From Acidimicrobiales bacterium (GTDB taxonomy: Bacteria; Actinomycetota; Acidimicrobiia; Acidimicrobiales; Palsa-688), in contig DASUWA010000026.1 of assembly GCA_036378675.1 (NCBI GenBank), forward strand, positions 1-53,339: DNA of 53,339 nt, given 5' to 3'. Shown here one piece after another: positions 50,970 to 53,078 of this stretch; the first letter of the stretch is position 1; every line of letters begins with the position of its first letter. Under the pieces are notes generated by a model. That model did not search any database and had not been told where the DNA came from. It saw only the letters and a program-made list of their open reading frames with translations. The translations under genes were made by a program, and so were the position numbers.

Positions 50970-51368
50970 ATGGGCAGGAGGTGCGCCGTCGCCGCACTTG
51001 GAGCATTGGGAACATTCCTGGCAGCGGGATGCGCCTCGTCTGCAACGTCGCATAACTCCGCCCGCGGGAACCTCGCCGGAGTGCTCGAGTTGTCCTCGGC
51101 GGTACCGGAAGGGTCCCCTCGCCCTGTGCCGGGGACGATCACGATGACGGCGGCTGACGGTACGACGCTGACTACAGCGGCGGGATCAGACGGGAGGTTC
51201 TTGGCGCGGATTGCCGCTGGGGCCTACAGCGTCACCGCACATAGCCCAATGTTCATCATCAACGGCGCCGACGGCATCTGCAGCGCCGAGTCAGACACTG
51301 GTCCGACTCCGGTCACGGTGACGGCCGGGAGAACCGTTTCTGTCACCGTCGTGTGCCCGACGAAGTAA
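50970..51368 (+). CDS. Small lipoprotein, carboxypeptidase-regulatory-like fold
   Basis: A 132-residue lipoprotein. The signal peptide ends in FLAAGC. The mature part has VPGTITMTAADGTTLTTA, then AGSDGRFLARIAAGAYSVTA, and a final GRTVSVTVVC strand. This is the pattern of a beta-sandwich related to carboxypeptidase regulatory-like domains. Two Cys (GICSAES and VVCPTK) may pair. Function unknown. Start ATG 50970. Confidence 0.65.
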   Translation: MGRRCAVAALGALGTFLAAGCASSATSHNSARGNLAGVLELSSAVPEGSPRPVPGTITMTAADGTTLTTAAGSDGRFLARIAAGAYSVTAHSPMFIINGADGICSAESDTGPTPVTVTAGRTVSVTVVCPTK

Positions 51369-51455
51369 CCGAACGCCGATTCGGCATCTGTCAAGTGGTG
51401 TTGGCGCTTCAAGGGCACAGAGCGCCATATGGAATCAATCGGCGTCGGTTGATCG

Positions 51456-51824
51456 TCAGTGTCGGCGGCTGCGCAGGAGTTCGACCATTTGGTGTTCGAC
51501 GTCGAGTCCGGCGGCCACTTTTACCAGTAGCGACGCGAAGTCGAGATCATCGGGTGGGAGCACGGTGGCACCGTCCTGGCCATTGCGGTCGAGGGTCCAC
51601 TTGGCCAGCAAGAAGGCCGTCCTCTTATTGGCTTCGCCGAACGCTTGCGCCCGCGCGACCCGATAGGCGACCACCGCCGCGGCCGTGATCGGGTCGTCGA
51701 CGTCATCGATGGCATCGAGCGCTCGTCGCAGCCGGTCGAGGTCGTCGGGCTCGTCAAACCATTCATCGTCCTGCCGGGCCAGACGATTGATCGCGATAGC
51801 CAACTCCAGGCTCGGTCGTATCAA
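51456..51824 (-). CDS. Fic/Doc-like protein with altered core motif
   Basis: A 122-residue protein of the Doc size class and helical pattern. The Fic core motif HPFxDGNKRTA is recognisable as AQAFGEANKRTAFL, but the catalytic His is Gln and the first Gly of the anion loop is Ala; Asn, Lys, Arg and Thr are kept. Fic domains transfer AMP, phosphate or other groups using that His, so this one is either inactive or chemically different. The TTG at 51824 overlaps the stop of a 41-codon gene (TTGA), a typical antitoxin-toxin coupling. Confidence 0.7.
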   Translation of the reverse strand: MIRPSLELAIAINRLARQDDEWFDEPDDLDRLRRALDAIDDVDDPITAAAVVAYRVARAQAFGEANKRTAFLLAKWTLDRNGQDGATVLPPDDLDFASLLVKVAAGLDVEHQMVELLRSRRH

Positions 51825-51946
51825 TGGTCGTGGAGGTAGGCGAGCAGTTCCCGGTAATTGGCTAACTGCTCTACGAGCCAGGCGCGCTCCTCTGAGGGCA
51901 GGTCGGCGAGAACCTTCTCAGCTCCAGTCCGCTCGGCGTGGCTCAC
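51821..51946 (-). CDS. 41-residue putative antitoxin partner of the Fic-like protein
   Basis: A short minus-strand gene from GTG 51946, reading MSHAERTGAEKVLADLPSEE, followed by a helix ending ELLAYLHDH. An in-frame stop (TGA) lies directly before the GTG, so this is its full extent. Its stop overlaps the Fic-like TTG by three bases. It is mostly helical and lacks a DNA-binding motif. I do not see the (S/T)xxxE(G/N) inhibitory motif of class I Fic antitoxins. Confidence 0.6.
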   Translation of the reverse strand: MSHAERTGAEKVLADLPSEERAWLVEQLANYRELLAYLHDH

Positions 51947-52196
51947 AGCTCAAGACTACCGGGTCCGTGCGCTGGCCGCCCTAACGGAACATTCTGGACG
52001 CCAGATTGGTCAGCTCGCCGGATCGATGACATTTCCGAGGTCCCCAGTTGGACGCTGATGAGGTCTGATGCTGCGTAGAAGGTGGGACGGTGGGATACAG
52101 ATCTTTATGGCGTGGGTGGTGCCTCGTGTCGGTGTAGACAATGAGTCGATGGAGGAACGACCGACGAGTTGCCGGCGGACGAGCCAGCGGGCGGCG
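51947..52196. other. Intergenic stretch before the APH-fold gene
   Basis: This 250-base region separates the divergent Fic pair and the phosphotransferase gene. An open frame continues upstream of the chosen phosphotransferase start to 52068 but shows no similarity. I see no RNA gene or clear operator. Confidence 0.4.
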
Positions 52197-53078
52197 ATGA
52201 GCGCGATGCCACCGGACCTGACCCTGGCATGGCTGCTCGGTGCACTCGATGTAGCTGAAGTGGTCAACATCGAGCCAATGCGGGGGAGTTCGACCTCGGA
52301 GTTGCATCGAGTAACTGTCCGCTCAGCCGGAGACGCCCAGATGCGAGTGGTCGTACGCCGGTACGTCTTGGCGGACGTTCTCGCGGAGAGTCTGGATATT
52401 GTCTCTCACGAGGTCAAGGCTTTGCGTCTGGCCGCTTCGGCAGCTGTTCCGACTCCGACGGTTCTCGCCGCAGACGCTCCTGGGGAACAGGCTGACGTTC
52501 CAACGGTGATCATGTCTTGGCTTGAAGGACGTCCCCGCTGGGAGTCCAAGGACCGCCGGCGGTTCCTGATCGACCTAGTCGACGCCATGATCGCAGTGTC
52601 AGCCGTCAAGGTCCCGTCCGACGTCTCGGTACGGCCGATCAGCGGGTACACCCAAAACAGCTACGACCCGCCCAGGTGGGCGACACGGCCAGTGGTCTGG
52701 CGGCGTGCTGTGGAGATCTTCCATGGACCGACCCCGATCACAGACTTGTGCTTCGTACACCGCGACTTCCATCCGGGAAATGTTCTTTGGAACAGGTCGC
52801 AACTCACTGGCTTGGTCGACTGGCAATCGGCCTGCATTGGACCATCATCGATCGAACCCGGCCACTGCCGGCTCAACATGCTTTACTACGACCCCGACAT
52901 GGCTGAGGAGCTACGGACTATTTGGGAACAACGCGCGCAGCGGATCTACGACCCCTGGGCTGATGTCATAGCCATCGTCGGAATGCTCGACCCAATGCGA
53001 AAACCCAAGAACCCGTCCAAGTCCAGAATGGCCATCGAAGATACCCTTGCCCGCGCGGTGGCAGACCTCTCCGGATGA
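52197..53078 (+). CDS. Aminoglycoside phosphotransferase (APH) fold kinase
   Basis: A 293-residue kinase-like protein. The catalytic loop is FVHRDFHPGNVLW (HxDxxxxN) and the metal-binding Asp is in LTGLVDWQSACIGP. An upstream VVVRRYV strand and the VSHEVKALRLAASAAVPTPTVLA segment complete the small lobe. The APH family phosphorylates antibiotics, choline, homoserine or other small alcohols; substrate unknown. ATG 52197 is chosen just before the domain; ATG 52206 is also possible. A hairpin with a T-run lies 124 bases after the stop. Confidence 0.82.
   Translation: MSAMPPDLTLAWLLGALDVAEVVNIEPMRGSSTSELHRVTVRSAGDAQMRVVVRRYVLADVLAESLDIVSHEVKALRLAASAAVPTPTVLAADAPGEQADVPTVIMSWLEGRPRWESKDRRRFLIDLVDAMIAVSAVKVPSDVSVRPISGYTQNSYDPPRWATRPVVWRRAVEIFHGPTPITDLCFVHRDFHPGNVLWNRSQLTGLVDWQSACIGPSSIEPGHCRLNMLYYDPDMAEELRTIWEQRAQRIYDPWADVIAIVGMLDPMRKPKNPSKSRMAIEDTLARAVADLSG

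Follow-up and report, generated by a model that had tools for sequence, protein, structure and literature searches.

In the P1 Phd-Doc system the antitoxin gene lies upstream of doc, and Doc kinase toxins are paired with a Phd-type antitoxin that bears a DNA-binding domain. A different arrangement is seen in the class I systems FicT-FicA and VbhT-VbhA, in which a small antitoxin without a DNA-binding domain, carrying the inhibitory motif [ST]xxxE[GN], is encoded beside the Fic gene. Catalysis by Fic and Doc enzymes is generally ascribed above all to a histidine, which opens the published consensus of Doc, HxFx(D/N)(A/G)NKR (PMC4177925; this and the other papers cited here by PMC number are represented by parts of their text). 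An in silico study from 2015 described a clade of the Doc subfamily, D2, comprising 45 sequences in which the histidine is replaced by glutamine (motif Qx[FY]x[DE][GV]NKR), and suggested that these proteins are perhaps not dead (PMC4454073), so the glutamine substitution in Doc-like proteins is not new. In the PanA:Doc system of Corynebacterium doosanense, two C-terminal helices of PanA, named Phd-C, act on the active site of Doc; according to the same source, Phd-C alone neutralises only when a tag stabilises it (PMC10440598).

Here we describe a pair of genes with features of each of these systems, found in a window of 53,339 nucleotides (the whole stretch of DNA analysed) from an Acidimicrobiales bacterium. 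The features of the pair are listed in Table 1. We judge that the two genes probably form a compact toxin–antitoxin-like module, made up of a Doc-fold protein whose active site is altered and a minimal partner resembling Phd-C.

Table 1. Features of the gene pair (positions are those of the window)
Feature	Position	Strand	Description and evidence
Doc-fold (Fic superfamily) protein gene	51456..51824	minus	122 aa, TTG start; ORF list, PF02661 31.7 bits, family alignment, model pLDDT 92.4, P1 Doc 3k33_A Z 15.8
Partner gene	51821..51946	minus	41 aa, GTG start; ORF list, predicted helices; without known family
TTGA overlap, Fic start TTG and partner stop TGA	51821..51824	minus	4 bases; compared across relatives
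Active-site loop QAFGEANKRTA, Gln60 to Ala70	51615..51647	minus	Family alignment and alignment with P1 Doc

The Doc-like protein exceeds the Pfam Fic (PF02661) cut-off of 24 bits, whereas its score of 24.6 bits with the NCBIfam Doc model TIGR01550 is under the curated cut-off of 38.65; all 19 aligned family members match the latter model at E 0.01 or better. In an AlphaFold model built from the family alignment (A3; mean pLDDT 92.4), the protein has the Doc fold over its whole chain. The closest solved structure to the model is P1 Doc (rmsd 2.1 Å over 117 residues, 25% identity), Foldseek likewise puts Doc first and the best non-Doc chain listed is a Fic enzyme at Z 9.1. Resemblance to the class I toxins is lower, with Z 8.6 to VbhT and Z 7.2 to EcFicT against Z 15.8 to Doc.

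The ORF translation of 51456..51824 contains AQAFGEANKRTAFL. A profile alignment places Gln60 (codon CAA, one base away from a His codon) opposite the motif histidine of P1 Doc, bearing out the initial annotation, which had read a glutamine in place of the catalytic histidine. The model sets Gln60 in a loop between helices 45-59 and 63-80. Residues N66-K67-R68 are kept, as in the NKR loop of P1 Doc, but unlike that protein the window protein has glutamine (Gln60) for His66 and glutamate (Glu64) for Asp70, in P1 Doc numbering. The glutamate is found in all 19 family rows, departing from the D/N of the Doc consensus, and the printed motifs of ordinary Fic/Doc control rows have Asp or Asn here: glutamate for aspartate is a real second signature of the family. 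The initial annotation also counted the alanine at the sixth motif position as loss of a conserved glycine. Glycine is present there in 16 of 19 family rows, but P1 Doc itself reads NDANKR and the consensus allows A/G (PMC4177925), ruling out the Gly-to-Ala change as a meaningful loss. Like clade D2, the family consists of single-domain Doc-like proteins, and 15 of the 19 rows fit the D2 motif (PMC4454073), although the window protein, with its alanine, is not a strict fit. Judged by motif, the family is probably clade D2 or close to it; a partner gene is not described in the parts of PMC4454073 covered here.

Relatives were sought in close relatives, in the class, order and phylum, and on contigs of named genomes. 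The order search gave matches at E 2.9e-32 or better in 9 of 397 genomes; behind these come two family remnants, at 2.5e-9 and 7.5e-9, and all other matches start at 1.3e-6, whilst ordinary Docs in the phylum sample reach 4.8e-9 at best. The family is a tight one, and its occurrence is patchy: with broken copies counted, the class sample has it in 9 of its 395 genomes. Thirteen of the 14 named loci are titled uncultivated actinobacteria, six of these Acidimicrobiaceae or Acidimicrobiia, and the other a Dormibacterota MAG. On viral contigs, none of 293 stretches that fit a pattern encodes a relative, and the window protein has no tblastn match at 1e-3 in plasmids and phages. In a phylogenetic tree the 19 aligned family rows fall on one side of a branch (support 94/92), opposite an outgroup of 14 hand-chosen rows.

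Within the family the glutamine is close to invariant, being present at 23 of the 24 related loci that keep the motif; the window protein is thus not a lone mutant amongst histidine-bearing homologues, an outcome that the initial annotation had named as fatal to its reading. In alignment A3 the residue is found in 18 of 19 rows, across 36-78% identity to the window, and the five further motif-keeping loci with glutamine are L071 and the broken L022, L024, L033 and L074. The sole histidine-bearing member, L030 (genome G178), also has Asp for Asn66 of the NKR loop; it is unusual to see both changes together, and the existence of L030 means that glutamine is not strictly required in the family. 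With regard to a single origin of the glutamine, constrained trees that hold the 18 glutamine rows together, or that group L030 with L029, L031 and L032, both give an AU p of 0.42, so that neither is rejected. Amongst 66 control rows (other Fic/Doc proteins that match an ordinary-Doc profile at E 1e-6, a non-random sample in which many were drawn by the glutamine-family profile), 60 have His at the position, three have Gln, two Tyr and one Arg. Histidine is therefore lost occasionally elsewhere, but nearly the whole glutamine family is without it.

Several of the proteins outside the family merit brief mention. Glutamine for histidine is seen in three Doc-like proteins (L045 in G647, 1312-1725; L047 in G691; L120 in G247), and the ORF before L045 looks AbrB-like by eye, so Gln-Docs may occur with ordinary DNA-binding antitoxins too. 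Tyrosine occupies the position in the ordinary Docs L048 (G609) and L117 (G229), and arginine in L039 (G619); L039 and L048 look like lone losses, their near relatives keeping the histidine. The window's own genome encodes a second Fic protein, ordinary and about 338 aa long (L010; G000 contig 2, 56853-57179), whose motif reads HPFLDGNGR and whose N-terminal part contains STALEGN, in agreement with the self-inhibition motif.

The gene for the Doc-like protein is under purifying selection. When the window copy is paired with each of three close relatives, Nei-Gojobori counting gives omega values of 0.12, 0.17 and 0.14, and the range over all six pairs of these four is 0.10-0.20; values between near-copies, where changes are few, run from 0.08 to 0.81, and those for the partner are noisy (0.10-0.80, one pair undefined). 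The gene might instead have lost catalysis and be in the course of disappearing, a reading under which one would point to the broken Fic genes at 11 of the 29 family loci found (L022, L024, L025, L031, L032, L033, L074, L091, L129, L131 and L132) and to the single histidine losses of ordinary Docs (6 of 66 control rows). With the glutamine kept across the family, low omega amongst the four close relatives and both partner and overlap conserved, we find this scarcely credible. The proposal that the altered Fic protein is conserved rather than decaying stands, on the family alignment and the omega values alike.

A tiny GTG-started gene ending within the TTG start of the Fic gene had been noted from the window sequence, and comparison of relatives shows this arrangement to be fixed. 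All 18 intact relatives have the TTGA overlap, the most distant of them, L023, at 41% identity; GTGA replaces it at two loci with a broken Fic gene, L031 (frameshift) and L032 (different C-terminus). At each of the 20 loci examined (the 18 with intact Fic genes plus these two) the start of the Fic gene thus coincides with the end of a small ORF. The initial annotation had asked whether the glutamine and the short partner co-occur and had named lack of conservation of the upstream frame as grounds for rejection; both points were settled in its favour by the intact relatives. The final residue of the partner is H, N or R because the last base of its codon is also the first of the Fic start codon and must be T or G; a functional role for this residue was considered and dropped, since the overlap accounts for it.

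Beyond the pair itself, little is shared between loci. None of the three genes adjoining the pair in the window matched anything in 23 family loci (tblastn, 1e-4). When flanks of 0.3-3 kb per locus were compared for shared ORFs, a flanking ORF clear of the pair was common to just 3 of 212 locus pairs with any protein match (L017/L018, L019/L020 and L035/L071), all of them near-copies, and on this basis the unit is two genes. A promoter scan of 51300-52200 found none, with 0.1 expected. The locus seems to be a conserved two-gene unit rather than a decaying gene. The best-ranked matches of mostly open-access literature contained neither a description of the mini-partner and its fixed overlap nor experimental work on Gln-Docs.

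What kind of protein is the partner? In line with the initial annotation, which held that it lacks a DNA-binding domain, Pfam and NCBIfam recognise none in it. The best Pfam match of the window copy has E 0.065, below cut-off, and NCBIfam gives none; over 20 members the best Pfam match is RskA_N (E 0.0049, in 2 of 20), and amongst solved structures the best E is 0.14, matches that we take as chance. With 41 aa, no family over cut-off and two predicted helices (3-15 and 18-40; pLDDT 87.6, pTM 0.52), it does not have the make-up of a Phd-type DNA-binding antitoxin. Its small size and place beside a Fic gene recall instead the class I antitoxins, but the motif [ST]xxxE[GN], already reported missing from the window pair, is absent from all 20 partner rows (and from all 19 Fic rows), which rules out a class I identity. 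The first partner profile gave E 0.13-0.68 for L028, L035, L029 and L030 and no match for L023, and because these values are not significant, kinship of the partner at the remotest loci rests on place and pattern.

A likeness to the C-terminal segment of Phd is suggested by the spacing of hydrophobic residues. In the 73-aa Salmonella Phd, binding to Doc is carried by six residues, F56, I59, M60, H63, L67 and L70 (as described in the portions covered of PMC9207808 and PMC10728895), which lie at offsets 17, 14, 13, 10, 6 and 3 from the C-terminus. The partner is hydrophobic (Ala and Cys included) at offsets 17, 10, 6 and 3 in 20 of 20 sequences and at offset 13 in 19 of 20, a count from which L024 was left out as frameshifted and to which L023 was added; the L023 partner, found by position alone, fits the same five offsets. 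Offset 14 does not match the hot spot (hydrophobic in 4 of 20), and offsets 4 and 7 are hydrophobic too (20 of 20 and 18 of 20). With the two C-termini in register five hot-spot positions are shared, whereas shifts of 1-3 give at most three (hypergeometric p 0.013, with helix periodicity ignored). The match was noticed after the fact and any amphipathic helix yields part of it, and we regard it as moderate evidence for Phd-C likeness. The partner may on this evidence be read as a stand-alone Phd-C-like antitoxin that would neutralise the Doc-like protein. It would then be comparable to PanA:Doc, where two Phd-analogous C-terminal helices neutralise Doc, but Phd-C is there part of a Panacea antitoxin (PMC10440598) whilst the partner is encoded by a separate gene. 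From P1 Phd-Doc the pair differs in that the partner has no recognised DNA-binding half and the toxin start codon lies inside the partner's stop codon.

The broken loci offer a view of how the two genes depend on one another. An intact Fic gene without partner was seen at none of 18 loci, whilst an intact partner is kept at 7 of the 11 loci with a broken Fic gene (all but L022, L024, L074 and L091). Three of the seven (L129, L131 and L132) were found by the partner search, and when these are set aside the figure is 4 of 8; each of the three has an intact partner beside a Fic frame that loses family likeness a short way past the N-terminus (E 0.17, 0.003 and 4e-6 with the profile, the first a weak remnant). 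Some of the frameshifts in MAGs may be sequencing or assembly errors. That order-wide search gave hits at nine places, in 7 of 288 genomes; each of the nine adjoins a Fic gene or apparent remnant, six of them an intact gene. Genome G843 has a second Fic remnant, L091 (contig 9), which is truncated, follows immediately on an ORF that by eye resembles hisF, and retains just the tail of a partner. Loss of the toxin before the antitoxin is what a toxin–antitoxin pair predicts, and the gene architecture as a whole (upstream partner, overlap, broken-Fic loci) fits a type II module. The invariant pairing (18 of 18) might also be explained if the pair were one enzyme, the small protein being an obligate subunit that completes the Doc fold in a working complex, for example one that reverses a modification, and no toxin–antitoxin system at all. 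Phd inhibits Doc by what has been termed ‘fold complementation’ in the literature excerpts covered, and a Fic toxin–antitoxin complex is reported to act as a deAMPylase (PMC13327609). We nevertheless consider an obligate subunit unlikely: it leaves unexplained the intact partner at four Fic-broken loci not found through the partner (L025, L031, L032 and L033), and the partner's conserved pattern of hydrophobic positions looks like that of an inhibitory segment.

If the pair is a toxin–antitoxin-like module, its working might be pictured as follows. The Doc-fold protein would be without the general-base histidine (Gln60), but would keep the loop residues that bind phosphate and Mg (E64, N66, K67, R68). 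The partner would correspond to the C-terminal two-helix neutralising segment of Phd, free-standing and minus the DNA-binding half, and may dock along a Doc-like surface to silence the Doc-like protein. Expression would be set by translational coupling, the antitoxin being read first and the toxin restarting at the weak TTG within the antitoxin stop. By analogy with Doc, a kinase of EF-Tu, the protein may be toxic through a target in translation, possibly EF-Tu itself, acting either via an altered or much slower group transfer or via stoichiometric binding of nucleotide and target.

Two other readings of the altered site need to be set against this. The protein could still be an active Doc kinase, with Gln60, or a group of the substrate or water, standing in as a weak base, and its module could operate like an ordinary phd-doc. 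The remainder of the loop is intact, and the authors of the D2 study supported their case by citing a His-to-Gln alcohol dehydrogenase with residual activity; the same text, however, states that the histidine is essential in Doc (PMC4454073). A DocH66Y variant was used for the crystal structure 3dd7, as its title says, and the glutamate for aspartate in 19 of 19 rows implies that more of the site has shifted, so that we hold a kinase of the ordinary kind to be rather improbable. On the second reading the protein is a decoy: a dead Doc retained because it captures the antitoxin, or the target, of an incoming active Doc in anti-addiction or anti-phage defence. A Doc fold without its histidine is how a dominant-negative Doc might be expected to look, but this protein has a dedicated partner of its own, and we think a decoy very unlikely. 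The sole other Fic-family match in the window's genome, which may be incomplete, is the 338-aa ordinary Fic protein, not a Doc; a Doc-model search of that genome at E 1e-5 missed the window's own protein too and so is no evidence on the decoy.

Our fuller proposal, which we offer tentatively and with the odds somewhat against it, is that a Doc lineage swapped its catalytic His/Asp for Gln/Glu and stayed toxic by a new mechanism (another kind of group transfer, or tight binding to a translation factor in stoichiometric amounts), its antitoxin being cut to bare neutralising helices and its regulation to coupling via the fixed TTGA overlap. AvrB, whose catalytic motif diverges from that of other Fido proteins, proved to be a glycosyltransferase (PMC10866546). 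Should this reading be true, the partner would be a natural minimal antitoxin consisting of the neutralising segment alone, and a conserved, paired Doc lineage without the histidine opens to direct test the question whether the fold can arrest cells without it.
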